Virus record (IMG/VR): IMGVR_UViG_3300042691_047776
Location: 1 to 21,036 of that record
Reading direction: 5' to 3' (one strand)
From: a virus
DNA length: 21,036 bases
Part shown: piece by piece, positions 335-20,291 of the stretch
How positions within the stretch are numbered: the stretch's first letter is position 1
Layout of the letters: the number at the start of each line of letters is the position of its first letter
Made by a program: the position numbers and the translations under genes
Notes under the pieces: model-generated
What the model was told of the DNA's origin: nothing
Database searches by the model: none
The model's input: the letters and a program-made list of their open reading frames with translations, nothing else

Positions 335-887
335 GCAGGTTCATGTGCAAGGCCACCAAGGCCGCATAACTGATGGCATGACTTTGTTTAAACACAAATC
401 CCTGTGACGCATCGCCATCCCACACTGTGGCAAAAACATCTGCCCAGGGCTTATTTTGCAGGTGCGCTTTGCCAGGTCTGATAATAGATATGAAAGCTGC
501 CATCCTAGGGATGCTATCTGGTTGCATGGTGGTCAACAACTGTGTGTAGTTGCCCACATGCACCAATTGCTGTGCCCACGCTGGATCAGTCCATAATCTT
601 TTCCATGGTGGTTCCAGGGCCAACATATCCTGATAATGCGCCGGATCTTGGATCAACTTGTACACAGTCATATTCAGCAAATCAATCTTGAAATAGCCCA
701 GTTGTTCGGCTTGTTCATAGTCAATAGCAGCACAGGCATTCACAGGATCATAGGGAATATCTGTAACATATACCCCACTGTTGTGTCGACGCACTTGCTC
801 TTGATGTATTTGACGTGCCGGGGCAACCTTGATAAGTTTAAGTAGCTGATCTCTGTCAGCCAAATCAATATCGATATCTGCACTCAT
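309..887 (-). CDS. Miniature DNA polymerase III alpha (DnaE) palm-like protein, 192 aa
   Basis: The protein follows the order of motifs in the C-family polymerase palm in a much shortened form. DIDID at residues 4-8 matches the PDxDxDF motif that carries two catalytic aspartates. SGVYVTDIPY at 37-46 matches the GGVVIAP region. YFKIDLLNMT at 65-74 matches KFDFLGL, which carries the third aspartate (here D69). IRPGK at 136-140 matches the YRPGP region, and FKQSHAISYA at 166-175 matches FNKSHAAAYA. The PHP domain, most of the fingers, and the clamp- and tau-binding regions are absent; bacterial DnaE is about 1,160 residues. The start cannot be later, because the first motif begins at residue 4. 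It is transcribed from its own TTGATC-17-TATAAT promoter with almost no leader. Whether it polymerises, mimics host alpha or does something else cannot be told. The homology call is my reading of motif order, not a search. Confidence 0.75.
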   Translation of the reverse strand: MSADIDIDLADRDQLLKLIKVAPARQIHQEQVRRHNSGVYVTDIPYDPVNACAAIDYEQAEQLGYFKIDLLNMTVYKLIQDPAHYQDMLALEPPWKRLWTDPAWAQQLVHVGNYTQLLTTMQPDSIPRMAAFISIIRPGKAHLQNKPWADVFATVWDGDASQGFVFKQSHAISYAALVALHMNLLSQSCEPA

Positions 888-892
888 ATTAG

Positions 893-921
893 ATTATAAC
901 ATTTATTTTTGTTGAGATCAA
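893..921 (-). promoter_or_regulatory. Sigma70-like promoter for the mini-DnaE gene
   Basis: On the minus strand, TTGATC (916-921), a 17-base spacer ending in TG-T, and TATAAT (893-898). Only five bases (CTAAT) separate the -10 box from the ATG at 885-887, so the predicted transcript starts at or within the start codon. The promoter overlaps the 3' end of the glycosyltransferase gene upstream. Confidence 0.7.
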
Positions 922-2084
922 CTACGAACATGTTTTTGTATCACAAGGTCAAACTTCTTTACGGAATCTAAATCACAGTTGCAAGTTAAAAAATTCCTTT
1001 TATTTGCATCAACCATTTTAGAAAATTCCTGACTTGAAAAAACAGTTGGGTTTTGTTCAAACCATTTCAGACACTCTACTGTAGCCTGATATCGTTTGTC
1101 ATGATCTAACTCGCTGTCAAACAATTTCAATTCAACTGGGAGTAAATTCCAAGCTGTATAAAATCCAATTTCATTGTACAATTTATTTACATTGGCACCT
1201 GCTACTGGGAAAGGCAAACACCCCGCATAAAAACATTTAAGAGCTTTTTCAGTAACATTTAGTTCATTGTTTTGCCAACCGCTTTCAGGAAACACCACAC
1301 AGTAATTTTCAAAATACAAAGGCAGTATAAAATATCCCGGAGGTACAAGTCCAAAGCGACCATTTATGCCAATCACAGGTGATTGATCATAATACAAATA
1401 ATCACTGTGTTCCATCCACACTGTTTGGTACAAGTTATTGACAAAGTTTTTAAATTTGATATCATGGTCAGATTCCCATTGGGAGTCTGCTACTTCAACG
1501 ATTTTTTTGCCAAGAGAACTTTTTATCTGTAAATTTAATTTGGTTTTCAAACATAAATCAATAAAATACTGTCTATTGGATCTTGGTTGACCATTGATAA
1601 ATGTGATGAGGTCTTTTCTTGGTAACAGCTCGTAGTTTTTGTTTTCAAAATATTGTGGATAAAAATGTCTGGTCCAGTAATCTCTACAATTTTGAACATA
1701 GGGAGAAAACCAAATTGTTTTTGTGAACATTTCGTGATCACACGTTAGATAACTGTTTGATACCAGATAGGTATTGTGATGTTGTGATAAGATTTTTTTG
1801 ACAGCCGGTGAGCCCACATGCAATGGTTCTGCACCATTGCAGATCAAAATCAAATCATATTGCGAGTAAACATGTTCATCCAGGGTTTCGGCTTGTTGTA
1901 CTCCTAGCAAAATTATACGAAGGTCATATGATTCTTGGTCGAGCTCATGTATCTGATCAGTCTCGGTCCATTGAATATCGCAAAAATAATTGTTTTCTTT
2001 GCAGAAATGCTGTTGATAGGCGTGCCAGCTATCTAGAATTTGGTGACCAATCCCCTCTTTTAGTTTATGCAATAGTATTTTCAT
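918..2084 (-). CDS. Glycosyltransferase-like protein, 388 aa
   Basis: Probably a GT-B-type glycosyltransferase of a kind common in phages. Two features support this. FINGQPRSNRQYFIDL at residues 162-177 is the asparagine-glycine/arginine signature that often opens the second half of such proteins. FPESGWQNNELNVTEKALK at 265-283, followed by AGCLPFPVAG, resembles the nucleotide-sugar-binding C-terminal region of fucosyltransferase-like (GT10-like) enzymes, where the pattern is E-x(n)-N-x-x-x-TEK-x-x-K. Acceptor and donor cannot be told. The ATG overlaps the upstream stop as ATGA, so it is translationally coupled to the 83-aa SGNH-like remnant. By eye it is more AT-rich than the UvsW and zinc-finger genes nearby, which fits an accessory insertion between core genes. 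The coding call is firm; the enzyme class is moderately sure. Confidence 0.75.
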   Translation of the reverse strand: MKILLHKLKEGIGHQILDSWHAYQQHFCKENNYFCDIQWTETDQIHELDQESYDLRIILLGVQQAETLDEHVYSQYDLILICNGAEPLHVGSPAVKKILSQHHNTYLVSNSYLTCDHEMFTKTIWFSPYVQNCRDYWTRHFYPQYFENKNYELLPRKDLITFINGQPRSNRQYFIDLCLKTKLNLQIKSSLGKKIVEVADSQWESDHDIKFKNFVNNLYQTVWMEHSDYLYYDQSPVIGINGRFGLVPPGYFILPLYFENYCVVFPESGWQNNELNVTEKALKCFYAGCLPFPVAGANVNKLYNEIGFYTAWNLLPVELKLFDSELDHDKRYQATVECLKWFEQNPTVFSSQEFSKMVDANKRNFLTCNCDLDSVKKFDLVIQKHVRS

Positions 2085-2332
2085 TTGGGCAAATTCGGTA
2101 AGAATATTTCATCCACCCACTTTTCATGCGCCAACGTCACAGGATGATTCTTTATGATTTCAAATTGATTGTCTCGAACAAATTTCAAACAATCATGATT
2201 ACTTTGATAAAAAATAAAATTATTCCAATCAATATTATCCCAGGGATACAGGTAGTACTGACCGTTGCCACAGGCGTTTTGATAGTTATCTTTGGTAAAA
2301 TTACAACCGGTGGCAAGCAGTTTTTTTTGCAT
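2081..2332 (-). CDS. Small SGNH-hydrolase-like remnant, 83 aa
   Basis: The N-terminus, LLATGCNFTKDN (residues 5-16), resembles block I of phage SGNH/GDSL-type hydrolases (GCSFTxxN). The C-terminus, NHPVTLAHEKWVDEI (about 62-76), resembles block V, the region with the catalytic histidine (HPxxxAHxxWADxI). The roughly 100-200 residues that normally lie between are missing, and the position of the nucleophilic serine holds asparagine (GCNFT). The protein is therefore probably an inactive, internally deleted descendant or a repurposed small protein. Its ATG directly follows the TAA of the zinc-finger gene, and its stop overlaps the next start as ATGA, so it sits in a coupled chain and is likely translated. 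The family assignment rests on short motifs only; the alternative is an unrelated small protein. Confidence 0.6.
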   Translation of the reverse strand: MQKKLLATGCNFTKDNYQNACGNGQYYLYPWDNIDWNNFIFYQSNHDCLKFVRDNQFEIIKNHPVTLAHEKWVDEIFLPNLPK

Positions 2333-3007
2333 TTACCAACCTGCTTTATGTAACATCTCAGTCACGTATTCTTGGTCAGCCACATAGTCGCTGAACTTTT
2401 TCATCCATACTTCTGAGTCAATGTAAGGCCATAGCATGGCTATCTGCGTGGCATCTAGTTCGCTCAAAAAACCTTGTCCACTTTTGCAATTATAAATGAT
2501 CCAAGGGCTGATGCGTCCTGCAGTCACGGCATAGACCATGGCATTGGTATTGCCATAACGCAGGCAATCTTCGGCGGGATTGCCAGTTTCTTCAGCCCAG
2601 TCTATACCAAACTCCATGGCACGGGCCAAGGCATCGTTGACATTTTCCACACGTAAGTAATCGACCAAATATTCAGTATACATGACGTCAGTGCACCATC
2701 GATCAATTTTTTTATTGTTCTTGAGCAACCACTCAGTGAATCTGGCCGGGTTGACAGCACGTACCGCCACGCAGTATCTTCCAAACTTTACAAATGCCCG
2801 ATAATAAGAACTTTCACAAAAGTCATCGTGGGTTTTCAGGCGTGCCGATCCTTGAGTAAGTTCATAAAACTTCAAGTATGCCTGGAACCCTAGTCGCACA
2901 CCTGACTCATCTCGCTCTTGTCTGCGGCGGCGTGGTTCACAAGAATGCACAGCAAGACTGGCTTCTCTCACAAAGTCTTTGCGACAATACTGACAGGTAT
3001 AGGTCAT
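2333..3007 (-). CDS. Zinc-finger phage protein of unknown function, 224 aa
   Basis: The N-terminus carries one compact CCHC zinc finger: C5 and C8 (CQYC), then H21 and C23 (HSC), followed by an arginine-rich stretch (EPRRRRQER, 24-32). This would suit nucleic-acid or protein binding. The remaining 190 residues are helical-looking, with many aromatic residues and no recognisable catalytic motif. I recall similar zinc-finger proteins beside replication genes in marine T4-like phages, but this is memory, not a search. The ATG overlaps the preceding stop as ATGA, placing it in the operon that begins at 3950. Its neighbours (gp62-like protein, UvsW) suggest a DNA-metabolism role; this is inference from context. 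Confidence 0.8.
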   Translation of the reverse strand: MTYTCQYCRKDFVREASLAVHSCEPRRRRQERDESGVRLGFQAYLKFYELTQGSARLKTHDDFCESSYYRAFVKFGRYCVAVRAVNPARFTEWLLKNNKKIDRWCTDVMYTEYLVDYLRVENVNDALARAMEFGIDWAEETGNPAEDCLRYGNTNAMVYAVTAGRISPWIIYNCKSGQGFLSELDATQIAMLWPYIDSEVWMKKFSDYVADQEYVTEMLHKAGW

Positions 3008-3450
3008 TTTTTCGTGTCTTGCCCGCTGGCTTTTAAGTAGGCATCTATGTCTTTTTTGGTGTTGATCCGACTCATCAATTCTACTTCGTCATCTTTCAAG
3101 TGTGGATACATTTCAGCCAATTGTTTTCTGATGCCGCTGGCACCTGGTTCTTTTTTTCTGGGAGCGATCCACGGATGTCGTTGTGGGCCTAATCCCGGAC
3201 TCACTGTGGTAGCTGTCAGCCACTGTAGTCGAGGATGGCGGTTGATATCAAAAAATCTTTTGTTCAATCTTTCGTTACAGGCTATCAAGTAAAACTCTTG
3301 CAAGTCTCGTGATCCTTGCACCGCTGACCCCCAGCGTATCATGAGATAGTTACTGAACTTTCGGCGTTCTTCATCAGTGAGGCTGTCATAGAACTCACGA
3401 TTCTTGCGATCAAATTCGGCCATCTCATTGGCTATGCTGAGCTTGTCCAC
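3004..3450 (-). CDS. Candidate clamp-loader small subunit (gp62-like), 148 aa, GTG start
   Basis: T4 gp62 joins gp44 to load the gp45 sliding clamp. This protein has a gp62-like outline: a phenylalanine/serine helix start (RKFSNYLMIRW, about 30-40), a conserved asparagine-containing helix, a short leucine/tryptophan segment ending in a proline and basic turn (RHPWIAPRKK, about 91-100), and a helical C-terminus of a type seen in marine gp62 proteins. Identity is too low to be certain by eye. It starts with GTG, which shares its G with the upstream TAG stop (TAGTG), so it is coupled to the 166-aa gene. T4 gp62 is about 187 residues, so this is a little short. No gp44 or gp45 gene is in the window to confirm it. 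Alternative: an unrelated conserved phage protein. Confidence 0.5.
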   Translation of the reverse strand: MDKLSIANEMAEFDRKNREFYDSLTDEERRKFSNYLMIRWGSAVQGSRDLQEFYLIACNERLNKRFFDINRHPRLQWLTATTVSPGLGPQRHPWIAPRKKEPGASGIRKQLAEMYPHLKDDEVELMSRINTKKDIDAYLKASGQDTKK

Positions 3451-3950
3451 TACCAGGCCCGATTATAGTTGACCACTTCGCAGTTCCTGCTAATATCTTT
3501 GACAAAGTACACACAATCTGGTTTGGGGCCTTCGCCGACAGGCACACACAGCATCTGACCGTTTTTGAGTTTGGGGGCATACCATGTGACTTCTTGATAC
3601 ACATCAATGATTTCTACATCCAAGAAACTGGGTCTAAAACTGCTAAGTGGATTGAACTGGAATGCTTTGAATCCACGATCGTTAATGGCGGTCAGAGGTA
3701 GCACTTCCAGGTCACCTAGGTCAGGTTCTCCGATGAGTATCTGCCAGTCTACCGGCATCCGAATGCGATGTTCGCCTATGCGTAGCACCAGAGCCGGGGC
3801 CGTGAAGCTTTCCAGAAAGATCAAGGGTATGTAGTGATAGTCAGGATCTTTGGGATCTGAATTGTCAAAAATGGCGAAACGCATGTCATCTACCTCTTCG
3901 GGCAAGTGATCCAATTCAAAGTGCTGATTTTCTAGGGTGAGTATTCTCAT
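3450..3950 (-). CDS. Conserved phage protein of unknown function, 166 aa
   Basis: A beta-rich protein with no recognised catalytic motif. Distinctive segments are PLIFLESFTAPALVLRIG (residues 42-59), DLGDLEVLPLTAINDRGFKAF (76-96) and FVKDISR near the C-terminus. I recall close relatives as conserved hypothetical proteins beside replication genes in marine T4-like phages, but no function. It is the first gene of the operon 3950 to 918, with its own promoter at 3957-3984. That promoter lies so close to the start that the transcript is predicted to begin on the ATG. No Shine-Dalgarno sequence precedes the start. It is followed by the gp62-like gene with a one-base stop/start overlap, which hints at a replication-linked role (inference). 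Confidence 0.8.
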   Translation of the reverse strand: MRILTLENQHFELDHLPEEVDDMRFAIFDNSDPKDPDYHYIPLIFLESFTAPALVLRIGEHRIRMPVDWQILIGEPDLGDLEVLPLTAINDRGFKAFQFNPLSSFRPSFLDVEIIDVYQEVTWYAPKLKNGQMLCVPVGEGPKPDCVYFVKDISRNCEVVNYNRAW

Positions 3951-3956
3951 AAGTTG

Positions 3957-3984
3957 ATTATAACATGTTTTGTGGCAAGTGCAA
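3957..3984 (-). promoter_or_regulatory. Sigma70-like promoter, operon 3950 to 918
   Basis: On the minus strand, TTGCAC (3979-3984), a 16-base spacer ending in an extended -10 TG (TGT), and TATAAT (3957-3962). Six bases (CAACTT) lie between the -10 box and the ATG at 3948-3950, so the predicted +1 is the A of the ATG. The -35 box lies just before and across the UvsW stop region. Confidence 0.75.
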
Positions 3985-3987
3985 CCT

Positions 3988-5451
3988 TTATTTCCAACTC
4001 AGTTTCTCTTGTGTAAACGGATAGTTGGCTTCACGATAGAAAACTTTTCTTTTTTGTAAATGTCGTTTGGCAAATCTACAGGTTGATGTCACGTCCCAGA
4101 TCTGCACATGGTCCTTGTCCTCAGCCTTGCGGATACCGCGTCCTATACTTTGAATAACACGGACAAAGGATTTACCTGGTTCAATGAGCACCAGGTTAAA
4201 AATCCTAGGTATATTGATACCCACAGCAGCAACGCCATAAGTGGCCACGATGATCTTGCCATCTGCCACAGCCACTTCATCATATTCATCTTGTCGGTCC
4301 TTGGCTTTGGTTGCACCGCTCACAAATACTGCATCCTCTAACTGATCTACCAGTGCTTGCCCAGCGGCAATGCGATCTACCAGCACAAGAGTGTTGCCTG
4401 TGGCGTTGACCTGACGCACCAGATCAGCAATGGTCTTTAACCTGTCGGGTTCTTCTAAGAGATATTTTAATTCACTCTGATAGTTGGTGAACTCGGCATG
4501 ATCTTCTAACTGCACGATGTTGACATGACACTGTGCCAGCACACCTTGACTTTGCAGTTCGCTGGCACTGAGTTTAGATATCACAGGACCCAGACTGACC
4601 AACAAGGCCACGCTTTCAAACTTTTCTTTGGGTATGGTTCCTGTGAGTCCCCAGCGTATGGGTATACGACTCATCACACCTGTGAGCAAGGTTTTCAGTG
4701 CATCTGCTTTGGCCATGTGTACTTCGTCCACAATCACACATACTACACCTTCTATGAACTCGCCAATGGTGCAATCATCTTCTGTGGTACCGTTTTTTGT
4801 GTTCTTGAGTAGCACGTTAAGGCTTTGCCAGGTGCATATGGTATGTTGGCGACCCCATTCTTTTCGGTCGCCAAAATAAACACCCACATCCAGTCCCATG
4901 TTGATGTAGTCTCGTTCTGTTTGCGTGACCAAGCTCTTGTTGGGCACGATCACGATGCTACGGCCATATGCGGTCACAGCGTCGCTGAGTGCGGCTGTCA
5001 TCACAGTCTTGCCTGCTCCTGTGGCCACTTCTTGCAGGCACTGTGGATTGTTCAAAAAGTTGTTGATGATCTCTACCTGATAGTCACGTAGCTTCATGGG
5101 TTCGCCTGCGGCCGGATGACCCTTGGGCCAGGCTATGTGGCTATAACTGTCTTCGGTGACTTGTGCAAATTCAAACGTGGTTGAGTAATCACGTTGGTCA
5201 TCTATGCTGATATCATAGTTGAAATTTTCCAACACCGGTAGTATTTCTGGCAACAAGTTCACGTAGGTACTGCCGCCCAGTTGGAAATAACTTACCTTGC
5301 CGTCCCAACGACCTAGTCTCACTGCTGGCAAATATCTGGCATATGGCACATCGTATTTGAATGTGCTTACCAGTTTGCGCCGAGCATCCAGCTCGAGTCC
5401 TTCAATTTTGATATTGACTTCATCGCGTAGAACAATAGTGGCTCTTCTCAT
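3988..5451 (-). CDS. uvsW: UvsW-like superfamily 2 ATP-dependent helicase, 487 aa
   Basis: T4 UvsW is an ATP-driven RNA/DNA and branched-DNA helicase (503 aa) that unwinds R-loops, promotes branch migration and shuts off origin replication. This protein has the full set of motifs: RDYQ at 122-125, Walker A ATGAGKT at 143-149, DEVH (motif II) at 242-245, GLTGT (motif III) at 268-272, and QSIGRGIRK (motif VI) at 434-442. Before the helicase core, about 110 residues including LPAVRLGRWDGKVSYF match the small N-terminal DNA-binding domain of UvsW (RxGxWDGxI). That alignment leaves no room for a later start. The gene abuts the oxygenase stop with zero spacing and has no Shine-Dalgarno; its promoter is at 5458-5486. 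It is intact and of normal length. Confidence 0.95.
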   Translation of the reverse strand: MRRATIVLRDEVNIKIEGLELDARRKLVSTFKYDVPYARYLPAVRLGRWDGKVSYFQLGGSTYVNLLPEILPVLENFNYDISIDDQRDYSTTFEFAQVTEDSYSHIAWPKGHPAAGEPMKLRDYQVEIINNFLNNPQCLQEVATGAGKTVMTAALSDAVTAYGRSIVIVPNKSLVTQTERDYINMGLDVGVYFGDRKEWGRQHTICTWQSLNVLLKNTKNGTTEDDCTIGEFIEGVVCVIVDEVHMAKADALKTLLTGVMSRIPIRWGLTGTIPKEKFESVALLVSLGPVISKLSASELQSQGVLAQCHVNIVQLEDHAEFTNYQSELKYLLEEPDRLKTIADLVRQVNATGNTLVLVDRIAAGQALVDQLEDAVFVSGATKAKDRQDEYDEVAVADGKIIVATYGVAAVGINIPRIFNLVLIEPGKSFVRVIQSIGRGIRKAEDKDHVQIWDVTSTCRFAKRHLQKRKVFYREANYPFTQEKLSWK

Positions 5452-6141
5452 TTAGATATTATACAGCTTTTTGTAAGAATTAACAACGATATTTTGGAAA
5501 TTTTCATCGAACTGTTGATGAACAATAATATGCCATCTTGCCTGTTTGCTATTATTAAACACGGCGTGATTATTAGAAAGATCTAACCAAAAGGCAGTAC
5601 CTGGAGAAAAGGGAACCGTTCCTTGTCGCTCCATCACGAACTGACAACCGTCTGGCTGTGTAACAGCTATATTGATCGCCGTCAATTGGGATATTTTAGT
5701 ATCGGTATGCATTGAAACATACCCTCCTGGGTCCAACAGCATTACCCGTAATCGAGAGAATTTGGATCCTGGCCAGGATGTAGAAAAATATTTTACTGTG
5801 TTGGGCATTAAAGTTTTGGCTTGAGTTGTCCAACCGTGTGGACGATCGTCATTGTAATAAGAGTCTTCTCTAGTTGCATCATAACTTTTGCCATGTATGC
5901 AAAAACTTTTCCACCCTTGATGTTCGTTGTACTCACTGTCTCTATGATTGCAAAGAAGATGTTCTATGTTTGGAATTTCTTGCAAGATCGTTTCTGTAGG
6001 AACATCAAGATCTAATTGCAACCATGGTAATCCTGAGTGCTTTTTGATCCATTCAAAATCAGCAGTCGGATTGTAGATAGGTAATTGAAGTGGTTGTCCA
6101 GCATACTTTTTGGCCATGAGTTGACTGATCTGATGTTTCAT
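5452..6141 (-). CDS. 2OG-Fe(II) oxygenase, aspartyl/asparaginyl beta-hydroxylase-like, 229 aa
   Basis: The C-terminal half is a double-stranded beta-helix oxygenase. The iron triad is H145-x-D147 (MHTDT) plus distal H192 (NNHAVFNNS), and R202 in ARWHIIVH is in place to bind 2-oxoglutarate. LRVMLLDPGGYVSMHTD and GTAFWLDL fit the aspartyl/asparaginyl beta-hydroxylase branch of the superfamily. The substrate cannot be read from sequence; phage relatives could act on protein side chains or on small molecules or glycans. The start overlaps the stop of the 380-aa gene as ATGA, and its stop directly precedes the UvsW ATG. By eye the gene is AT-richer than UvsW, as are the two genes before it, so the three look like one accessory cassette. 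Confidence 0.85.
   Translation of the reverse strand: MKHQISQLMAKKYAGQPLQLPIYNPTADFEWIKKHSGLPWLQLDLDVPTETILQEIPNIEHLLCNHRDSEYNEHQGWKSFCIHGKSYDATREDSYYNDDRPHGWTTQAKTLMPNTVKYFSTSWPGSKFSRLRVMLLDPGGYVSMHTDTKISQLTAINIAVTQPDGCQFVMERQGTVPFSPGTAFWLDLSNNHAVFNNSKQARWHIIVHQQFDENFQNIVVNSYKKLYNI
5458..5486 (-). promoter_or_regulatory. Sigma70-like promoter for uvsW
   Basis: On the minus strand, TTGTTA (5481-5486), 17 bases, TATAAT (5458-5463). Six bases (ATCTAA, including the TAA stop of the oxygenase gene) separate it from the ATG at 5449-5451, so the predicted +1 is the A of the ATG. It lies inside the last codons of the oxygenase gene. The -35 match is moderate (4 of 6). Confidence 0.6.
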
Positions 6142-7280
6142 TTTATCTTAGATTGAAAAATATTATATTCTTCTACGGTGTTATGCAACAATGTCCATTT
6201 GTAATTTAGAATATTTGAACACCAGATGTTATCATAATTACTTACGTCATTGTTGATGACCCAATTGATCAAGCTACCATTAAAGAATTTCACTTGTTTT
6301 GTTTGCTGAGCATTTTGCCAGCGATCGATAAAATTTTTCCCTGCCAATGTTGTAAATTTATCATTGACATAATCAACAAACGTCGATCGTTTTTTAAGTG
6401 TCAATTTTTGTAACGGTGTCAGCCTCGGGTCATCAAGTTGATAGTGGACCAATTTATTTTGTGATATAAAATTCCAAACAAAGGTTCCGTAATCTATCCC
6501 ATTCCACTTGGTCCATAATTGATGACAAAAATTTACCTGCGTCCGACTTATATCAACTATTTGTATTTCTTCAGTGCTGTCATTAACAATATTTAACATC
6601 CAGGAAAGACCCGAGCCAGGAGTAACTAGTCTAGGTTGATTGGTGACTATCACTGGTTCATTGTTAAATACCCATAATTGATTTTCAGCTATGTTTTTAT
6701 AATCCTGATATTTGGTCAAATCTATTTTGCCATTGTACAAGAAAAATTTCAAATCTCTGCTGGCGCGATTCCAATTTACTATACCTCGATTACGTTGTAA
6801 TTGTTTGGCAATAATTCCTTGCCCAAAGCCATCAACCTGGTATTGTGTTATTTCCTTGCCTGGCTTTACCCATAACGGAGTATAATTATCATGCAAATTT
6901 TGTTCGCTCCTAAGCGGCATGGGATGGCAAACAGTCTTGACCGAAAAATCATCTAGCGTGTAGTTGTCAACAGCCATGAACCAACATTGATCATTGAGCT
7001 GTAATTTTTTGTCTGGATGCCAAATTAGATGTGCTATCAACCCGGTATGTGGGTATGTATCAACCAACTGTTTCCACTGTTTCCAATCTGTAAACATGGT
7101 TCCGCTTTTGACAAACAGTGCGTAGGCATGATTGTTTTTCTTGGCCCAGGTAAATCCTTCACACCAATCATTGCAAACAAAAATTTCTTGTCCGGTAACA
7201 TCCCCGTGATTATCGTATTGTATTCCACTCAGGGTTTGATTTCTGTATGGGCCATCTAATACAATCACCGGCCATGTCAT
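6138..7280 (-). CDS. Uncharacterised two-part phage protein, possibly methyltransferase-like, 380 aa
   Basis: I do not recognise a named family with confidence. The first half (about 30-140) has features of phage sugar-related proteins: a FVKSGT segment (56-61), LNDQCWF (95-101) and HDNYTPLW (130-137). The second half contains TPGSGLSWMLNIV (220-232) followed by QIVDISRTQVNFCHQLW (240-256). This pattern, a glycine-rich turn and then an acidic strand end, resembles a Rossmann or SAM-binding fold, and the C-terminus SNILNYKW would be a later strand. A methyltransferase-like function is only a guess. It overlaps the upstream gene and the downstream oxygenase by ATGA on both sides, so the three genes are one translationally coupled unit and probably act together. 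AT-rich relative to neighbours. Confidence 0.75.
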   Translation of the reverse strand: MTWPVIVLDGPYRNQTLSGIQYDNHGDVTGQEIFVCNDWCEGFTWAKKNNHAYALFVKSGTMFTDWKQWKQLVDTYPHTGLIAHLIWHPDKKLQLNDQCWFMAVDNYTLDDFSVKTVCHPMPLRSEQNLHDNYTPLWVKPGKEITQYQVDGFGQGIIAKQLQRNRGIVNWNRASRDLKFFLYNGKIDLTKYQDYKNIAENQLWVFNNEPVIVTNQPRLVTPGSGLSWMLNIVNDSTEEIQIVDISRTQVNFCHQLWTKWNGIDYGTFVWNFISQNKLVHYQLDDPRLTPLQKLTLKKRSTFVDYVNDKFTTLAGKNFIDRWQNAQQTKQVKFFNGSLINWVINNDVSNYDNIWCSNILNYKWTLLHNTVEEYNIFQSKIK

Positions 7281-8080
7281 TGAAGAGAAACCTTTTCTGG
7301 AATCGCTCCGCTTTTTAAACAGTTTGTTAACTGTTCGACCTGTAAAGTCTTGCCGAAAACACTAATACCAAACATATTCTCAACTGTCCATTGTGTCAAA
7401 CCCCAGTATTTTACCCAGTCATCATGATAATCTTTCCACCAAGAGTCAAATGCTTGAAGCTCTATATTTTCTAACAAATCAGTATCTTCAAGTGCGATAT
7501 AGATTTTTGGTCTTAACTTCAGCCAAGGTTTAGCTAGTTCACACAGTCTTGTAAGATCATCCGGTTCGTTGTTCTTCCAATAATGATAAGGGGTCTTCCC
7601 CAGCTCTGACCATTTTACAAACAAATCTCCCGCCCGGACTTTTGTTTGTGTTGCTGTGATCCAGTCTGACTGCATGGGCCTCTCCAAAAGGCCAGATTTT
7701 TCTCGATAATCTATGCAAAAAAATTTTTTGTATTTTTGAGAATCGGATTCGCAGATGTGTATATGTTCATGAAAATCTAGCCAAATTGGATTGCCGTCAT
7801 AGTTTTTTTCGTATATTTTGTGTAACTGATTGAAATACGTTTGATCAAGACCTAGACACTTCTGACGATCAACATTGATCGATAATTTTTTTCCATGATC
7901 TATCAAGTGATCAATTAGATCTGCATGAGCAATGGAGAGTTTGTAGAAGGGATTGTCCCAACTTCTCCAGGGAATTGGCACTCGTGAAAGATTCTTATAA
8001 ATCTGTTGATATGTGCTACCAAGAGAGCAATCGTTTATAATCAAATCCACGGTTTGATCATTTGAAAATAATAGTTTCAT
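7277..8080 (-). CDS. Uncharacterised phage protein, first gene of the oxygenase cassette, 267 aa
   Basis: The frame is open as far as 8200, but a start there would run across the terminator of the ATPase gene and the promoter. The ATG at 8078-8080 (protein begins MKLLFSNDQTV) is therefore chosen. Recognisable but unassigned motifs are FHEHIHIC (103-110), with paired histidines and a nearby acid, DYREKSGLLE (124-133) and GDLFVKWSELGKTPYHYW (151-168). The histidine/acid cluster could bind metal, but no known active site is evident. Its stop overlaps the next ATG as ATGA. The gene is transcribed from a promoter at 8090-8117 that contains a perfect palindrome, so it may be separately regulated. 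I know no function for it. Confidence 0.75.
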   Translation of the reverse strand: MKLLFSNDQTVDLIINDCSLGSTYQQIYKNLSRVPIPWRSWDNPFYKLSIAHADLIDHLIDHGKKLSINVDRQKCLGLDQTYFNQLHKIYEKNYDGNPIWLDFHEHIHICESDSQKYKKFFCIDYREKSGLLERPMQSDWITATQTKVRAGDLFVKWSELGKTPYHYWKNNEPDDLTRLCELAKPWLKLRPKIYIALEDTDLLENIELQAFDSWWKDYHDDWVKYWGLTQWTVENMFGISVFGKTLQVEQLTNCLKSGAIPEKVSLQ

Positions 8081-8089
8081 GATTATTGT

Positions 8090-8117
8090 ATTATATAGCA
8101 CGTATTTAATACGTGAA
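8090..8117 (-). promoter_or_regulatory. Probable promoter of the oxygenase cassette
   Basis: On the minus strand, TATAAT at 8090-8095 inside TGCTATATAAT, with a weak -35, TTCACG (8112-8117), at 16 bases. The ATG is nine bases below the -10 box, giving at most a leader of a few bases and no Shine-Dalgarno. The region between the boxes is filled by the palindrome at 8099-8115. Confidence 0.5.
8099..8115. repeat. Perfect 17-bp palindrome, candidate operator
   Basis: CACGTATT-T-AATACGTG: two perfect 8-base arms around one central base. It lies between the -10 and -35 boxes of the promoter for the 267-aa gene and just beyond the T-run of the ATPase terminator. The position suits a repressor binding site; a secondary hairpin of the terminator is the alternative. 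Confidence 0.55.
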
Positions 8118-8142
8118 AAAAACAGGCACCAAAGTGCCTGTT
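8116..8142 (-). terminator. Rho-independent terminator after the AAA+ ATPase gene
   Basis: Nine-base-pair stem AACAGGCAC (8121-8129) with GTGCCTGTT (8134-8142) and a four-base loop. On the minus strand it is followed by seven T residues (8116-8122). It lies about 40 bases past the ATPase stop. Confidence 0.9.
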
Positions 8143-8149
8143 GTAAAAT

Positions 8150-8169
8150 GGGCAGTGTTGCCACTGCCC
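8150..8169 (-). terminator. Second hairpin between the ATPase stop and the main terminator
   Basis: GC-rich eight-base-pair stem GGGCAGTG (8150-8157) with CACTGCCC (8162-8169) and a four-base loop, followed on the minus strand by ATTTTA. The weak T-run makes it an auxiliary or partial terminator, or a 3' end stabiliser. Confidence 0.55.
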
Positions 8170-8181
8170 AGGAGCTACCGA

Positions 8182-9207
8182 TTATGAGTTTTTCATGCAA
8201 GTGCTTGCAGCCAAAGCCTTCCAGTTGTCGGCACTGACCTTGGTCAAGTCTGCGATTTTGAGTGCCATACGCAGGCTCATTTCACGTAGTCGATCCTTGT
8301 TGGCATCCATGAAGTTCAGGATTTCGTCACCTTGTTCTGGACTGAAATCATAGTCATTGAACAGTTGTCCTTGGCGGAAGATCTGCTTGATACGCAAGAA
8401 ACGATCACGCATGGTATTGAGAGTCAAGTCCAAGAAGTGGCAACGACTCTGCAAGGCTTCCAAATGGTCTTGCAATTTCTTGCTCTTAAGATTGCTGAAC
8501 TGCAAATTGGTGATGAAGATACAGGCACCTTTGAAGTCAAAGCAGTCAGGCACACCTTCACGTCGTAACATGGCCGAGTCCGAGTTCCAGTAGATCCTAC
8601 GTTTCTTGCCTGAGTCCAAGGCGGCCTTGAGAATGTTCAATGACAAGTCATCTTGGAACACCGAGTCACAGTCGTCAAACACCAAGACGTTGTTGGGATC
8701 TGAATGTTTGTACAGAGTGCAGTAGAGACCGATAGGAGTCATGGCACCTTTGATCACTTCATATTTGATCTTGCGACCACTGAGCTTGTCAAACAAGCCA
8801 GACTTCTCCAGTTGTTTTTCTACACCGTAGCTCTTGCCCACCCCAGGAGGGCCCACAACGATCATGGCACGCACATCACCGGCTATGGTGGCCTTGGTCA
8901 TTTGGTCCAGGATGTCGAACCGTTGTTCGATACGATCCATGACTTCATCATCGGTTTCTGCTGGTTCCACGGTCTGGTCCGTGACCTTGGGTACATCCAC
9001 AGGCTGACCGCCGGTGAATTCTAGGTCTTCGATGGTATCCACTTTGATACGCACCACATCTGGAACATCTGGGCCAAAATAGCCATCTGCTTGCACTGTC
9101 ACATAGCCTCCCTTTGCACCAGTTTGAAATCCCTTGACCAGGTTAAAGATCATACCGTTGACGGGTTGATTGCGATACGATCCATTCTTAACGAGAATAG
9201 TTGACAT
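8182..9207 (-). CDS. AAA+ family ATPase, phage type, 341 aa
   Basis: Residues 1-65 form a small separate N-terminal domain (SYRNQPVNGMIFNLVKG). An acidic linker (EPAETDDEVMD, 81-91) follows, then the ATPase core. Walker A is GPPGVGKS (119-126), Walker B VLVFDDCD (174-181), sensor 1 FITN (231-234), and an arginine that could be a finger lies at LQSRC (252-256). The rest is a helical lid. Such proteins occur in marine T4-like phages; their partner and target are unknown to me. It is a single-gene unit: a consensus promoter at 9243-9271, a strong Shine-Dalgarno AAGGAGCT at 9214-9221, and a terminator at 8116-8142. This dedicated strong promoter suggests high early expression. The ATPase fold is sure; the biological role is not. 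Confidence 0.9.
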   Translation of the reverse strand: MSTILVKNGSYRNQPVNGMIFNLVKGFQTGAKGGYVTVQADGYFGPDVPDVVRIKVDTIEDLEFTGGQPVDVPKVTDQTVEPAETDDEVMDRIEQRFDILDQMTKATIAGDVRAMIVVGPPGVGKSYGVEKQLEKSGLFDKLSGRKIKYEVIKGAMTPIGLYCTLYKHSDPNNVLVFDDCDSVFQDDLSLNILKAALDSGKKRRIYWNSDSAMLRREGVPDCFDFKGACIFITNLQFSNLKSKKLQDHLEALQSRCHFLDLTLNTMRDRFLRIKQIFRQGQLFNDYDFSPEQGDEILNFMDANKDRLREMSLRMALKIADLTKVSADNWKALAASTCMKNS

Positions 9208-9213
9208 ACATCT

Positions 9214-9221
9214 AGCTCCTT
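9214..9221 (-). promoter_or_regulatory. Strong ribosome binding site for the AAA+ ATPase gene
   Basis: AAGGAGCT on the minus strand, six bases before the ATG at 9205-9207. It is one of the few strong Shine-Dalgarno sites in the window and contrasts with the leader-free starts elsewhere. Confidence 0.85.
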
Positions 9222-9242
9222 CTTGATTGTTTTAATAATACT

Positions 9243-9271
9243 ATTATAGCAAATGGGTAATTATTGGTCAA
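9243..9271 (-). promoter_or_regulatory. Near-consensus sigma70 promoter for the AAA+ ATPase gene
   Basis: On the minus strand, TTGACC (9266-9271), exactly 17 bases, TATAAT (9243-9248), with the extended context TTTGCTATAATAGT. The predicted leader is about 30 bases and holds the Shine-Dalgarno. The same core sequence and spacing recur at 9588-9616. Confidence 0.9.
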
Positions 9272-9292
9272 CCAGCCCAAACTACGGGCTGG
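9272..9292 (-). terminator. Hairpin after the small membrane protein gene
   Basis: Seven-base-pair stem CCAGCCC (9272-9278) with GGGCTGG (9286-9292) and a seven-base loop. There is no proper T-run: on the minus strand the next bases are the TTGACC box of the ATPase promoter. It is a weak terminator candidate that directly abuts the promoter. Confidence 0.5.
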
Positions 9293-9318
9293 CCGCGGGT
9301 GTTGTCCAAAAACAACAG

Positions 9319-9540
9319 TTATTTTTTGGCTATTTTCTTGACTTCATCTTCGTAGCGGATCTGTGCCAGGAAAACTGTGTAGATAAGAAAAATGCAAGAC
9401 GTGATGCCCAAACAGATAACGATCGTGGGCACCATGTCGGGGGTGACCACCTGACTCAACCAATGGAAAAATCCGGTTACTGCTATAACAATGGCTATCA
9501 TGCCTGCTGTCAATGCACCTGCTCGTAGATATTGATTCAT
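9319..9540 (-). CDS. Small membrane protein with two transmembrane segments, 73 aa
   Basis: Two hydrophobic segments, roughly residues 9-32 (LTAGMIAIVIAVTGFF) and 37-60 (VPTIVICLGITSCIFLIYTV), are joined by a short turn with TPDM. The C-terminus is charged (RYEDEVKKIAKK). By the positive-inside rule the basic C-terminal tail is likely in the cytoplasm. There is no signal peptide cleavage site and no known domain. It is a single-gene unit with its own consensus promoter (9588-9616), a leader of about 40 bases with only a weak AAGAAAG Shine-Dalgarno, and a hairpin after it. A host-membrane role early in infection is possible (inference from promoter class); the function is unknown. Confidence 0.75.
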   Translation of the reverse strand: MNQYLRAGALTAGMIAIVIAVTGFFHWLSQVVTPDMVPTIVICLGITSCIFLIYTVFLAQIRYEDEVKKIAKK

Positions 9541-9587
9541 ATTTGTCTTTCTTGAAAAATGTTGCTAAAAAACTACAGTATGAAACT

Positions 9588-9616
9588 ATTATAGCAAAAA
9601 GAATCTTTTTGGTCAA
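9588..9616 (-). promoter_or_regulatory. Near-consensus sigma70 promoter for the small membrane protein gene
   Basis: On the minus strand, TTGACC (9611-9616), 17 bases, TATAAT (9588-9593), in the same extended context TTTGCTATAATAGT as the promoter at 9243-9271. It begins just past the terminator of the virion-type protein gene. Confidence 0.9.
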
Positions 9617-9620
9617 CCAT

Positions 9621-9646
9621 AAAAAAACCCTACTATAAGTAGGGTT
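9621..9646 (-). terminator. Rho-independent terminator after the virion-type protein gene
   Basis: Eight-base-pair stem AACCCTAC (9626-9633) with GTAGGGTT (9639-9646) and a five-base loop, followed on the minus strand by seven T residues (9621-9627). About 20 bases past the stop codon. Confidence 0.9.
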
Positions 9647-9664
9647 AATTTTGTTTATGATTTT

Positions 9665-10222
9665 TTAAGGAGCCACATAGTTGTCAATGTTACCTACGAC
9701 ATTTCCCACTTGCCCAAGGCTGATATTCCAATTGTAAGTCATCGTGCTACCACTTAACACCCGCCATACATCGCATCCTTCTGGATCAAGTGCCACAGGT
9801 TGCAACACACCATCGATTGCCACGTTGCTTCTGGGATCTGTGGTGCTATCTGAATTAGAAGGTTGCCCAAAATAGCAAAGTTGAAAATTATTTGCTGTTC
9901 CTACCCCAGGATCAATTTCTACGTTTCCGGTATAGTAGTTACTGTTAATTAACCCCAACAACGCCCCACTGCCATTTGAAATCGTAATAGCCATTGACAC
10001 ATTTCCAGCAAAATCGGTATTTAAAAGTGCCGAATCGGACAAAGTAAACAATACTGTGGTTCCAACTTCTGCTGGTGTAGGATATGGCCATGGATCAATG
10101 GCCTGATCAACCGTGGTTACAGTGCCTGAAAATATCTCGGTGCTGTTAACGCTTGCTGTGACTGTTACAGGAGTATTACCATACCCAAGTCCATAAAATT
10201 TAAAAGTTCTATTAGCTGCCAT
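9665..10222 (-). CDS. Beta-rich virion-type phage protein, 185 aa
   Basis: The ATG at 10220-10222 (protein begins MAANRTFKFYGLGYG) is chosen over one 30 bases upstream, because an AGGAG Shine-Dalgarno at 10231-10235 serves it. The sequence is rich in threonine, serine, glycine and valine, with alternating hydrophobic residues typical of immunoglobulin-like or beta-sandwich virion proteins. The repeated ideas are an opening YGLGYGNTPVTVT, then SGTVTTVDQ, then a late RSNVAIDGV and a closing MTYNWNISLG. I recall related proteins in marine phages as small structural or decoration proteins, but no experimental role. A GATAAATA late-promoter match lies at 10243-10250 and a strong terminator follows, so it seems to be made alone and late, as expected for a virion part. 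The specific role is inferred. Confidence 0.75.
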   Translation of the reverse strand: MAANRTFKFYGLGYGNTPVTVTASVNSTEIFSGTVTTVDQAIDPWPYPTPAEVGTTVLFTLSDSALLNTDFAGNVSMAITISNGSGALLGLINSNYYTGNVEIDPGVGTANNFQLCYFGQPSNSDSTTDPRSNVAIDGVLQPVALDPEGCDVWRVLSGSTMTYNWNISLGQVGNVVGNIDNYVAP

Positions 10223-10242: not shown

Positions 10243-10250
10243 TATTTATC
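10243..10250 (-). promoter_or_regulatory. T4-type late promoter candidate (GATAAATA)
   Basis: GATAAATA on the minus strand matches T4 late consensus TATAAATA at 7 of 8 positions and the relaxed NATAAATA form reported for marine T4-like phages. Transcription about six bases downstream would give a leader of about 15 bases that just contains the AGGAG site. Confidence 0.6.
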
Positions 10251-10983
10251 AAGACCAGTGTGCTAATATTATCGAATCCTGCAAATCAGCGGGTTTGGGT
10301 TGTCCGTGAAACACTATCACGCTGTTGCGGTGATTTAATCGTGTTCCTGCTCCGGGTGTTTTATAGCATTTTCTGCTGAAATTATATCCGCCATCTTTGC
10401 ATTGCCAGCGCCAGCTGACCACCTGTTCCACGTCAAACAAGCGTCGATCTGAGTCTGAGACAGCATTGGATATGTAATCTTGATCCCCATGATTTCTGCT
10501 CATGATTTTGCGCAGATCTTCGCGCTGGAAAGCTGACCATACAGATTCAAACCGCCGGGTATCCCACCACATGATGCTACTGTTTACTCTGTAGTCGTGC
10601 GGTCGCCATAGATATTTGAAATCTCTCACTGCCCAAAAATATCTCAAAGGTTGTTGCCAAATCCAGTCTATGTTACCAACAATCACAGTGTCTAGATCAA
10701 AATACAACAAAGGTCCAGCATGATGTTCGGGATTAAACAACTGCATCTTGTACCACCAGGCCCGACGTGGCCCGCTGATACTCCAGTCTGTGAGAGCATG
10801 CTTGATCATGGGTGCAGGTACTGGTCTATCATTCTCGGTGTACACATGCAGTCGTATGCCCGGGGTGACGTGGCGGCTCAGCATGTTGTACAGGTGTTCC
10901 ACATAGGTCCAGCTGTAGGCATCGCCGTGGATCACACAGGCGCAGTCTATAGGTCCAATCGGGGCTGTAGGCGTTGTAACCAT
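10249..10983 (-). CDS. GT-A type glycosyltransferase with DLD motif, 244 aa
   Basis: IDCACVIHGDAYSWTYVEHLYNML (from residue 12) is a typical opening of phage-encoded glycosyltransferase-like proteins. LLYFDLDTVIVGNIDW (92-107) carries the DxD metal and nucleotide-sugar motif (D96, D98). The C-terminus has an HG near the end (VIVFHGQPKP), as in GT8-like enzymes, where a histidine contributes to metal binding. It probably transfers a hexose from a nucleotide sugar; donor and acceptor are unknown. The start lies 37 bases inside the previous gene's end; the conserved opening motif leaves little room for a later start. It follows the capsule-type glycosyltransferase and probably shares its transcript. 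Confidence 0.8.
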   Translation of the reverse strand: MVTTPTAPIGPIDCACVIHGDAYSWTYVEHLYNMLSRHVTPGIRLHVYTENDRPVPAPMIKHALTDWSISGPRRAWWYKMQLFNPEHHAGPLLYFDLDTVIVGNIDWIWQQPLRYFWAVRDFKYLWRPHDYRVNSSIMWWDTRRFESVWSAFQREDLRKIMSRNHGDQDYISNAVSDSDRRLFDVEQVVSWRWQCKDGGYNFSRKCYKTPGAGTRLNHRNSVIVFHGQPKPADLQDSIILAHWS

Positions 10984-11807
10984 AGTCCTTTCTTGATTTC
11001 TTCAACTGTGTATTCGGTATGACAGATTTCAGTCAACCACTGATCACGATCTACTGTATAGGGCTGATCAATATTTTCTATTTGTATACTCACAGGATGG
11101 GCCAGGCTGCTGGCATCAACAATGGGCCTGGTTCCTGCAAGTGCGGCCTGTATGCCAGGACCCGAATTGTGATTGACCATGGCATGGCAATCAAAGGCCA
11201 GGTTGTAGCTGTCATAGGTGTTGGTTACCTTGACAGGTTGTTCTATGACCACATCCGGGGGCAAGTGTACCAGTCCAGCCCAATCTAATGCACTTCTAGG
11301 GTGAGGGCGCACCACAATAGGACGGTCGGTAACCCTGCGTAATCGTTCTACTTGTTGGACCACCCATCCTTCCATGCTGGACAAACCTACCACCTGCAGA
11401 CTGCGGGCGTGCTGTGCGACGATCACAATCCTGGGATTGCGGCTGACATTGATGGCCAAGCTGATACCCAGGCGCTTGGGACGATTCCAGTCCAAGTTTT
11501 CTGTGTGTCCATAATAGCCGTTGGCTGTGATGGAGTTTAAGGCTATCTTCCAAGTTTCGCCGCGGTACAAGGCACCCACATCAATGACAATGACCGGACG
11601 ACCCAAACTTCTATAGTGACTCCACACTGCCTGGTTGGCAGCCATGCGTCCGGACCACAATACCGACCATACAATAACGGCATCTGCGTCCCAGCTATTT
11701 TCCTGAACATGCACTCCTGCTTGGCGCAAAGAGTCCAGCATGGCACTCATCACAGGCACGCTGTTCTTGGCACACTGCAAAGGAAAATAGGCCACTGATT
11801 TGATCAC
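10947..11807 (-). CDS. Capsule-polysaccharide (KpsC/LipB-like) glycosyltransferase, paralog 1, 286 aa, GTG start
   Basis: It belongs to the capsule polysaccharide biosynthesis superfamily (Kdo-transferase-like GT-B fold). The diagnostic core is RPIVVRPHPRS (162-172) followed by NHNSGPGIQAALAG (212-225). In these enzymes a basic RPHP loop and a conserved serine/glycine helix bind the nucleotide sugar. The C-terminus ends in the signature shared by all five paralogs here, W-L-x-x-I-C-x-x-x-(Y/F)-T-x-x-E (WLTEICHTEYTVEE). The start is GTG at 11805-11807 with no Shine-Dalgarno. It diverges from the plus-strand operon across only 11 bases. The sugar and acceptor are unknown. This copy and the one at 14381 keep RPHP, while the other three have RxxK at the same place. 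Confidence 0.75.
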   Translation of the reverse strand: MIKSVAYFPLQCAKNSVPVMSAMLDSLRQAGVHVQENSWDADAVIVWSVLWSGRMAANQAVWSHYRSLGRPVIVIDVGALYRGETWKIALNSITANGYYGHTENLDWNRPKRLGISLAINVSRNPRIVIVAQHARSLQVVGLSSMEGWVVQQVERLRRVTDRPIVVRPHPRSALDWAGLVHLPPDVVIEQPVKVTNTYDSYNLAFDCHAMVNHNSGPGIQAALAGTRPIVDASSLAHPVSIQIENIDQPYTVDRDQWLTEICHTEYTVEEIKKGLWLQRLQPRLDL

Positions 11808-11818
11808 TAAATATCCAC
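11806..11818 (+). promoter_or_regulatory. Late-type promoter candidate abutting the ATG at 11819
   Basis: ACTAAATA (11806-11813), then TCCAC and the ATG. It matches T4 late TATAAATA at 6 of 8 positions. The sequence TAAATATCCA-(C/T)-ATGAAA is repeated before the gene starting at 17563 on the other strand, at the same distance. The predicted +1 is the A of the ATG. Confidence 0.45.
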
Positions 11819-12658
11819 ATGAAATATACTGTAATTACCTCATTTCACGACGAAGGTCTAAAACAATACGGACAACGCATGGTCAACACTTTTGAGTCTA
11901 ATTGGCCAGCCGAAGTCGATCTGGTTGTTTGTGCTGAAAATTGCCAGCCCAAAACCACTCGCCCAAACACCCAAGTTTATGACCTGCTGGATGTCAGTGC
12001 CAACTGTAGAGCGTTTGTAGAACGGCATAGAAACAATCCCTTGGCGCACGGTCAAGCCGGACCAAGCGGCGCTTGGGATCCTAAAAAAGCCTTTAGATGG
12101 AACGCCGTACGATTTGCCTACAAGGTTTTTTCAGTCGCTTTGTGTGCCAACAATATCAGCTCGGGCTGGATGATCTGGATAGATGCCGATACCCATACTC
12201 ATAGTCCTGTACCTTTGCAATGGTTAGAAAAGGTTTGTCCCAGCACTGCCATGATCAGTTATCTGGGCCGTGGAGAAAAATACCACAGTGAATGTGGGTG
12301 GGTGGCCTACAATCTTGATCACCCGGCTACAAGAAGCTTCGTAGCCGACTTTGTCAACCTGTACAACACTGATCGTATATTCAAAGAACAAGAATGGCAT
12401 GATAGTTATATCTGGGATCTGGTCAGAAGAAAATACAAAGATAACCACGAGTTTTTAAATTTGAATCCCAGCCAAAACGACAAAGGTCTAGCCGGACATC
12501 CATTTATCAACAGCGAACTGGGTCTTTACATGGATCATGCCAAGGGTGATAGAAAAAATCTTGGACACAGCAAGCCCAAGGAGGTAGTGAGTCATCCAGA
12601 CCATCCATACTGGCAAAGAGTTAAAACTCAAGGTAAAGTAAATTTCAATCTAGACTAG
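11819..12658 (+). CDS. GT-A type glycosyltransferase-like protein with DAD motif, 279 aa
   Basis: WMIWIDADTHTHSPVPL (117-133) holds the DxD motif (D122, D124) at the end of a hydrophobic strand, as in GT-A nucleotide-sugar transferases. The N-terminus MKYTVITSFH and the long loop around DPKKAFRWNAVRFAYKV (87-103) match a family of phage glycosyltransferase-like proteins I recall as uncharacterised. Sugar and target are unknown. It is the first gene of the plus-strand operon; the ATG has no Shine-Dalgarno, and a late-type promoter motif ends five bases before it. The next gene follows after seven bases. Confidence 0.75.
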   Translation: MKYTVITSFHDEGLKQYGQRMVNTFESNWPAEVDLVVCAENCQPKTTRPNTQVYDLLDVSANCRAFVERHRNNPLAHGQAGPSGAWDPKKAFRWNAVRFAYKVFSVALCANNISSGWMIWIDADTHTHSPVPLQWLEKVCPSTAMISYLGRGEKYHSECGWVAYNLDHPATRSFVADFVNLYNTDRIFKEQEWHDSYIWDLVRRKYKDNHEFLNLNPSQNDKGLAGHPFINSELGLYMDHAKGDRKNLGHSKPKEVVSHPDHPYWQRVKTQGKVNFNLD

Positions 12659-12665
12659 GACAACA

Positions 12666-13310
12666 ATGCATCAAGCACACCGCTGGTGGTTTCCAGACCA
12701 AGACACGCATTTTGCAAAAATGCTGTCCAGAAATATTGCCAAGGGCGGCCAAGCAGTGTATCAAGAACCTGTACGCAGAGCCAGCATAACTTATTGTAAA
12801 AAACACGATGTGGCCATAGACATAGGTGCCAATGTGGGCCTATGGACCCGAGATCTTTGCCAGTTTTTCCAACAAGTGCATGCCATTGAACCTGTGGCCG
12901 ATTTCAGAGATTGCCTAAGCAAAAATGTTCCAGCCACAAATCTACAAATGCATGATTGTGCATTGGGTGTAGAAAATAGCATGATTGACATGATCATCAC
13001 GCCAGACAATACCGGCCACAGTCATGTGGATCCTGCTAGTTTTGGTCTGGGCAAAATACAAATGAAAACCTTGGACAGCATGGATTTGCCTGTGACTGAT
13101 TATATCAAAATAGACTGCGAAGGTTATGAACACAATATTATCTTAGGTGGTGAAAACTACATCAAGGCCTGCAGACCTGTTATAGTGGTCGAACAAAAAT
13201 TCCACAAAGACACTGGCATAGTAGACAACGGCGAAGCCGTGGAACTGCTGAAAAGTTGGGGAGCACGATTGTTGCAGCAGGTCAAACACGATTTAATCAT
13301 GGGCTGGTAA
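12666..13310 (+). CDS. FkbM-family SAM-dependent methyltransferase, 214 aa
   Basis: FkbM-type enzymes O-methylate sugars or other hydroxyls using S-adenosylmethionine. Motif I is IDIGANVGLWT (51-61), the acidic strand 2 end is AIEPV (73-77), and the family hallmark DYIKIDCEGYE (145-155) is followed by ILGG. The C-terminus has the usual strand with VVEQKFH. The length is normal for a compact phage member. AGGA (about 12657-12660) lies six bases before the ATG, a usable Shine-Dalgarno overlapping the upstream stop region. In this operon it most likely methylates a sugar on the glycan being built (inference from neighbours). Confidence 0.88.
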   Translation: MHQAHRWWFPDQDTHFAKMLSRNIAKGGQAVYQEPVRRASITYCKKHDVAIDIGANVGLWTRDLCQFFQQVHAIEPVADFRDCLSKNVPATNLQMHDCALGVENSMIDMIITPDNTGHSHVDPASFGLGKIQMKTLDSMDLPVTDYIKIDCEGYEHNIILGGENYIKACRPVIVVEQKFHKDTGIVDNGEAVELLKSWGARLLQQVKHDLIMGW

Positions 13311-13311
13311 C

Positions 13312-15280: not shown

Positions 15281-15285
15281 CTGTT
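15267..15285. terminator. Weak hairpin between convergent operons
   Basis: Six-base-pair stem AACAGT (15267-15272) with ACTGTT (15280-15285); the loop contains five T residues and the shared TTAA stop site. It could act as a weak bidirectional stop for the two converging operons, but there is no T-run outside the stem. Confidence 0.3.
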
Positions 15286-17563: not shown

Positions 17564-17568
17564 ATGGA

Positions 17569-17576
17569 TATTTATG
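17569..17576 (-). promoter_or_regulatory. T4-type late promoter candidate (CATAAATA)
   Basis: CATAAATA on the minus strand (7 of 8 to TATAAATA), followed by TCCAT and the ATG at 17561-17563. The predicted +1 is the A of the ATG. There is no Shine-Dalgarno. It would split the minus-strand operon at this point. Confidence 0.6.
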
Positions 17577-17583
17577 TGCGCAG

Positions 17584-20290: not shown

Positions 20291-20291
20291 G

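Follow-up and report, generated by a model that had tools for sequence, protein, structure and literature searches.

Most discussion of leaderless translation treats it as characteristic of entire bacterial lineages or of single phage repressors, and the cI mRNA of phage lambda is made from PRM. A review describes leaderless mRNAs in the bacteria Mycobacterium, Streptomyces, and Deinococcus and names the lambda cI mRNA as leaderless (PMC9031893). In Deinococcus-Thermus, a -10 motif abutting the ORFs has been reported (PMC12340547). In the paper on the jumbo phage AR9, the UTRs of this phage were 26–491 nt long, and phage transcripts were remarked to be often leaderless.

Here, we analyzed a complete virus record of 21,036 bases (the window, i.e., the whole stretch of DNA studied) together with its relatives. 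Comparison of their sequences suggests, with a probability that we put at about 0.88, that sigma70-type promoters in these phages are placed so that the transcription start falls on the A of the ATG, giving leaderless mRNAs that would be translated beside mRNAs with Shine-Dalgarno leaders. By its UvsW, 166-aa, and mini-DnaE genes, the window sits beside the jumbo phages PA5oct, 121Q, Atu_ph07, and Phosso (UvsW identity, 49–55%), and tblastn found homologues of all three proteins in these four phages and in Xanthomonas jumbo phages. The clade of the window is large and uncultured, with at least 600 stretches among the matches listed; UvsW was 80–95% identical across the 80 contigs kept from these. 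Assignment of a host was rejected, the single match in genome_contigs, a gammaproteobacterial MAG contig at 63% identity, being too weak for naming one. Variable cargo (a hydroxylase and genes without assignment) was located between conserved core genes at 918–2332 and 5452–8080, and the lengths of both cargo gaps differed greatly among relatives. A long gene run at 10249–20861, in which genes resemble by eye those for sugar transfer, nucleotidyltransferase, methyltransferase, and asparagine synthase, is possibly a glycan-modification island.

Promoters next to start codons in the window

Three sites on the minus strand combine a TATAAT box with a nearby ATG: TATAATCTAATATG (TATAAT-N5-ATG, 885–898) at the gene for a 192-aa DnaE-like protein (mini DNA polymerase III alpha, mini-DnaE; 309–887, phrog_11778, E = 5e-53), TATAATCAACTTATG (TATAAT-N6-ATG, 3948–3962) at the gene for a 166-aa protein (3450–3950, phrog_11279), and TATAATATCTAAATG (TATAAT-N6-ATG, 5449–5463) at the gene for a UvsW-like DNA helicase (3988–5451, phrog_16, E = 6.6e-75, Pfam ResIII), all three genes being on the minus strand. 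The mini-DnaE promoter (893–921, minus strand) consists of the -35 box TTGATC, a 17-nt spacer with TG before the -10 box, and TATAAT, followed by 5 nt to the ATG at 887. The promoter of the 166-aa gene (3957–3984, minus strand) has TTGCAC (3979–3984), a 16-nt spacer, TATAAT (3957–3962), and 6 nt to the ATG at 3950, and that of uvsW (5458–5486, minus strand) has TTGTTA, a 17-nt spacer, TATAAT, and 6 nt to the ATG at 5451. The boxes, their -35 matches, and their positions were thus as given in a preliminary description of this DNA. That description had also placed the three -10 boxes at nearly the same distance from the ATG, and this distance is 6 nt for the 166-aa gene and uvsW and 5 nt, not 6, for mini-DnaE. 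A Shine-Dalgarno sequence, said to be lacking at the three sites, is indeed impossible there because the -10 box takes up its position.

A fourth case, proposed at 8078–8095 as a weaker one, is so by its 9-nt gap and poor -35 box: the promoter (8090–8117, minus strand) has TTCACG, TATAAT, and 9 nt to the ATG at 8080. When the window was scanned at all ATG-initiated ORFs of 60 aa or longer with a threshold of 9/12 matches, a promoter ending 4–9 nt before the ATG was found at exactly these four sites. The genes at 8182–9207 and 9319–9540 proved to be leadered, as had been proposed, with distant TATAAT boxes in both and an AGGAG Shine-Dalgarno sequence in the first. Consensus matches alone do not prove promoter function. 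TATAAT-N6-ATG occurred twice in the window against 0.19 expected, a count reached in 1 of 100 shuffles, and TATAAT-N5-ATG occurred once against 0.26 expected. Since this excess over chance is modest and no more than suggestive, the case for leaderless genes rests on the relatives, which take it far past chance.

Distance from promoter to start codon in the clade

From 3.0 Mb of related contigs, we collected 915 distinct strong sigma70 promoters after removal of exact duplicates, with -35 and -10 hexamers 16–18 nt apart, and counted the ATGs of ORFs of at least 60 aa behind the -10 box. There were 155 ATGs at 6 nt, and 31, 13, 11, and 8 at 5, 7, 8, and 9 nt, respectively; other nearby positions mostly held about 1–10. 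In a smaller set of 80 uvsW loci, strong promoters had 96 ATGs at 6 nt behind their -10 boxes, and the other positions held 0–16; at the same loci, TATAAT or TATACT boxes without a -35 box gave no peak at 6 nt, indicating that the peak depends on the -35 box. Five long relatives pooled had 23 ATGs at 6 nt, compared with approximately 1.6 expected from neighboring distances (Poisson P of approximately 5e-19). A distant relative with 63% UvsW identity carried TTGACA-17-TATTAT-6-ATG before uvsW. Approximately 14 of the 199 entries in the catalogue of leaderless promoters had the ATG within a longer in-frame ORF, including a 274-aa family that was discarded because it proved to be an artefact of coding sequence within the ATPase gene.

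None of the 155 ATGs at 6 nt was preceded by a Shine-Dalgarno sequence. A second group of promoters was located approximately 30 nt from the start, and 118 of these 163 had a Shine-Dalgarno sequence, which bears out the proposal that the phage uses two translation modes. Comparison across related phages had been suggested as one means of refuting the leaderless layout; it instead revealed a -10 to ATG distance peaking at exactly 6 nt throughout the clade. No ATG was found at 6 nt among 451 promoters of PA5oct, 121Q, and Atu_ph07, and Phosso had two, so that the 6-nt layout appears to be derived in the uncultured clade.

The peak was specific to ATG. At the 6-nt position of the 915 promoters, GTG, TTG, and CTG occurred 1, 5, and 2 times, respectively, and did not form a peak; leaderless starts were ATG in 119 of 119 cases compared with 153 of 166 other starts (Fisher P = 9e-4). 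In the leadered promoters, A(+1), at 7 nt behind the -10 box, had a frequency of 0.53 and T(+2), at 8 nt, one of 0.55, and a pyrimidine preceded A(+1) at a frequency of 0.65 (all family-weighted). The leaderless promoters bear their ATG in the same register, with a pyrimidine before it in 0.80. This initiator register lends independent support to the A of the ATG as the probable +1, so the earlier proposal of a transcription start on this A agrees with both the 6-nt peak and the A(+1)T(+2) pattern of leadered promoters. Transcription might alternatively start 1–4 nt before the ATG, giving mRNAs with short leaders that are nearly but not strictly leaderless, as the gaps of 7–9 nt in the clade and at the 8080 gene of the window would allow. 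We regard this as unlikely because in the main peak the A occupies the standard +1 position and the leadered promoters agree in register, and such mRNAs would functionally belong to the same class.

Genes and gene contexts

By prediction, no gene of the clade was leaderless more consistently than the 166-aa gene, whose family in the catalogue contained 65 leaderless and 0 leadered members. Among 94 distinct upstream regions, 74 passed the 9/12 threshold at 5–8 nt, 67 of them at exactly 6 nt. Most of the remaining 20 still have a TATAAT-like box approximately 6 nt before the ATG with a weaker -35 box, or have a misassigned start; the relative L213 is a genuine exception that has a leader and starts with TTG. 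The distance to the ATG was thus conserved at 6 nt in nearly all 94 distinct relatives, and it was held while the intergenic length varied from 9 to 67 nt and the -35/-10 spacer from 16 to 18 nt. The best promoter ended 5–7 nt before the start in 53 of 94 orthologues of the 166-aa gene, 28 of 106 of uvsW, and 10 of 85 of DnaE, compared with approximately 0.5% in the shuffled null. The sequence evidence supports the leaderless reading well for the 166-aa gene and at the level of the clade. The predicted structure of the 166-aa protein had low confidence (mean pLDDT, 48.8), and the protein had no sequence match in PDB.

The best account of these observations is that RNA polymerase, presumably that of the host, would begin transcription on the A of the ATG, so that the mRNA would have neither a 5′ untranslated region nor a Shine-Dalgarno sequence. 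We infer that translation would then take the leaderless pathway, with the ribosome and initiator tRNA binding the 5′-terminal AUG. The leaderless units would act as compact restart promoters in short gaps after terminators or between two genes, driving core genes of replication and repair (166-aa, UvsW, primase, mini-DnaE, and UV endonuclease) and whatever cargo gene comes behind the terminator. In many relatives, the region downstream of the ATPase gene contains a hairpin, then an intrinsic terminator with a U-tract that continues into a -35 box, and then the promoter. The -10 box of this module lies 5–7 nt before the next ATG, whatever gene follows, in 40 of 77 distinct regions. The fourth site of the window is such a module, with an intrinsic terminator at 8121–8142 (minus strand), the U-tract of which extends into the -35 box of the promoter that follows, and, behind it, the first cargo gene (7277–8080, minus strand, no known family); its gap is 9 nt, while most relatives carrying the module are leaderless by a distance of 5–7 nt. 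In total, 43 of the 199 leaderless promoters were located directly behind a terminator, and others were found where cargo genes break a core operon. Approximately 31 gene families, one of them an artefact, had at least one leaderless candidate, including primase (phrog_47) and a UV endonuclease-like family (phrog_8420).

uvsW is the weakest and least certain of the three sites in the window because its promoter lies within a reading frame, that of the hydroxylase (ORF 5452–6141), at its 3′ end. The -10 box encodes Leu-Tyr-Asn, the -35 box (TTGTTA) is weak, and the hydroxylase TAA abuts the uvsW ATG, so that coupled translation from a readthrough mRNA is possible. Six relatives bearing the hydroxylase keep the -10 box at 6–7 nt, although in several of them the ORF reads past the uvsW start. 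uvsW was scored as leaderless in 15 of 15 relatives without cargo upstream, i.e., directly after the ATPase terminator, and in most relatives with cargo upstream it was coupled to the last cargo gene; the window has cargo upstream of both uvsW and DnaE. A leaderless uvsW in this window is plausible. DnaE was also coupled in most relatives, and its promoter was present in only a minority: 0 of 28 when the gene abuts its partner compared with 16 of 57 with cargo between them (P = 9e-4). The leaderless promoter of mini-DnaE would thus be used only where cargo parts the gene from an otherwise translationally coupled partner, and the case for a leaderless DnaE is good. The stand-alone 192-aa protein carries a DIDIDLADRD motif and is conserved in RaK2- and PA5oct-like phages as well as in the clade.

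These two genes bear on the possibility that the TATAAT boxes abutting ATGs are idle and that translation of the genes, on longer operon mRNAs, is instead coupled to the stop codon upstream. Consistent with coupling, an open upstream frame ended between -14 and +8 of the start in 60 of 74 non-leaderless uvsW and 66 of 72 non-leaderless DnaE relatives, as at uvsW in the window. As an explanation of the promoters, however, coupling is highly unlikely: it needs no exact 6-nt distance from a -10 box with a -35 box and would not predict a bias to ATG alone, many cases stand behind an intrinsic terminator, and the gaps before the 166-aa gene reach 67 nt without a Shine-Dalgarno sequence. That the boxes arise by coincidence, through the AT-richness of intergenic DNA or through codons such as Leu-Tyr-Asn, would fit the modest excess in the window, the uvsW box, and the one artefactual family, but it is extremely improbable and is refuted at the clade level by a sharp peak that requires the -35 box, depends on ATG, is conserved across families, and has no counterpart at 6 nt in the related, more AT-rich PA5oct and 121Q.

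The leadered gene upstream of the terminator-promoter module encodes an AAA-type ATPase (8182–9207, minus strand, phrog_1250), whose Shine-Dalgarno sequence AGGAGCTA (9213–9220, minus strand) is the exact complement of TAGCTCCT (8170–8177, minus strand). TAGCTCCT, just after the ATPase stop, and a hairpin (8149–8170) form a 3′ element (8149–8177, minus strand) beside the terminator of the module. This octamer and its complement occurred nowhere else in the window, and no Rfam match above the gathering score was found at 7900–9700. In relatives such as L037, L065, L038, L066, and L177, the Shine-Dalgarno sequence and the 3′ element change together (GGAGCCAACC/GGTTGGCTCC, GGGCTAGAAA/TTTCTAGCCC, and GGGCTAGTAA/TTACTAGCCC), and several matched changes are needed to account for the A, C, D_A, and D_T types. 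In several types, a GC-rich hairpin carries the 3′ copy in its loop, and the copy lies up to 984 nt from the stop. Own pairs were counted against swapped pairs, a MAFFT alignment having shifted the register of one type; own pairs gave 185 paired cells, compared with a mean of 162 and a maximum of 181 in 2000 swaps, a figure that is not a strict probability since swapping ignores relatedness. The complementarity may reflect 5′-3′ UTR pairing with autoregulation, or a small RNA derived from the 3′ UTR. Pairing of the 5′ and 3′ UTRs over the Shine-Dalgarno sequence is described for icaR mRNA of Staphylococcus aureus in PMC3971182, which cites Ruiz de los Mozos 2013. In both icaR and the phage ATPase gene, the 3′ UTR contains a complement to the Shine-Dalgarno sequence of the same gene, and they differ in that the phage element belongs to an ATPase gene, stands next to or in a hairpin before a terminator, covaries in its pairing, and is predicted from sequence.

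The ribosomal protein bS21 was encoded in 7 of 7 long relatives (G001–G005, G011, and G012), and its gene does not itself look leaderless. bS21 was rejected as a cause because it is also encoded in PA5oct, Phosso, Atu_ph07, and Vibrio phage 2.275, and it thus does not separate leaderless from leadered phages. Phage-encoded IF3 was not found in the seven long relatives. More speculatively, and rather doubtfully, the leaderless promoters may be sockets of a second translation channel, in which a terminator-promoter plug would start whatever gene is inserted, with no need for a ribosome-binding site, and leaderless messages would evade control based on the Shine-Dalgarno sequence, including the ATPase 3′ element of the clade, and possibly changed ribosomes (bS21 in the long relatives).

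Comparison with known leaderless systems

Bacterial leaderless mRNAs (PMC9031893) share with the phage clade the 5′-terminal AUG, which is predicted in the clade, and the lack of a Shine-Dalgarno sequence. They differ from the clade, a giant phage clade, in its full -35/-10 promoters, its Shine-Dalgarno leaders alongside, and its ties to terminators and cargo junctions. In Deinococcus-Thermus (PMC12340547), a fixed gap of a few nucleotides between the -10 motif and the ORF gives a leaderless mRNA, as proposed here; the motif there is TANNNT with an optional -35 box, whereas the phage clade has TTGACW and TATAAT/TATACT at 16–18 nt spacing and exactly 6 nt to the ATG. The lambda cI mRNA resembles those proposed for the clade in being a leaderless phage mRNA made by host polymerase, which is presumed for the clade; cI is one repressor gene of a temperate phage, whereas in the clade about 30 families are involved, among them genes of replication and repair. 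Leaderless genes are thus of a known kind, and their scale and context in a phage clade were not found in the open-licence papers searched. For gene finding, starts in such phages could be called from the promoter instead of the ribosome-binding site.

The closest comparison is with the cultured relatives. PA5oct, 121Q, Atu_ph07, and Phosso have homologous uvsW, 166-aa, and mini-DnaE genes and 0, 0, 0, and 2 promoters at 6 nt, respectively. A Shine-Dalgarno-like leader was present on uvsW in 6 of 6 cultured relatives checked and on the 166-aa gene in five, whereas in the clade of the window these genes are predicted to be leaderless or coupled. A widespread uncultured clade of jumbo phages appears to have shifted core replication and repair genes to leaderless expression while its cultured relatives kept leaders, and comparing the two offers a natural way to ask how and why genes change their mode of initiation.
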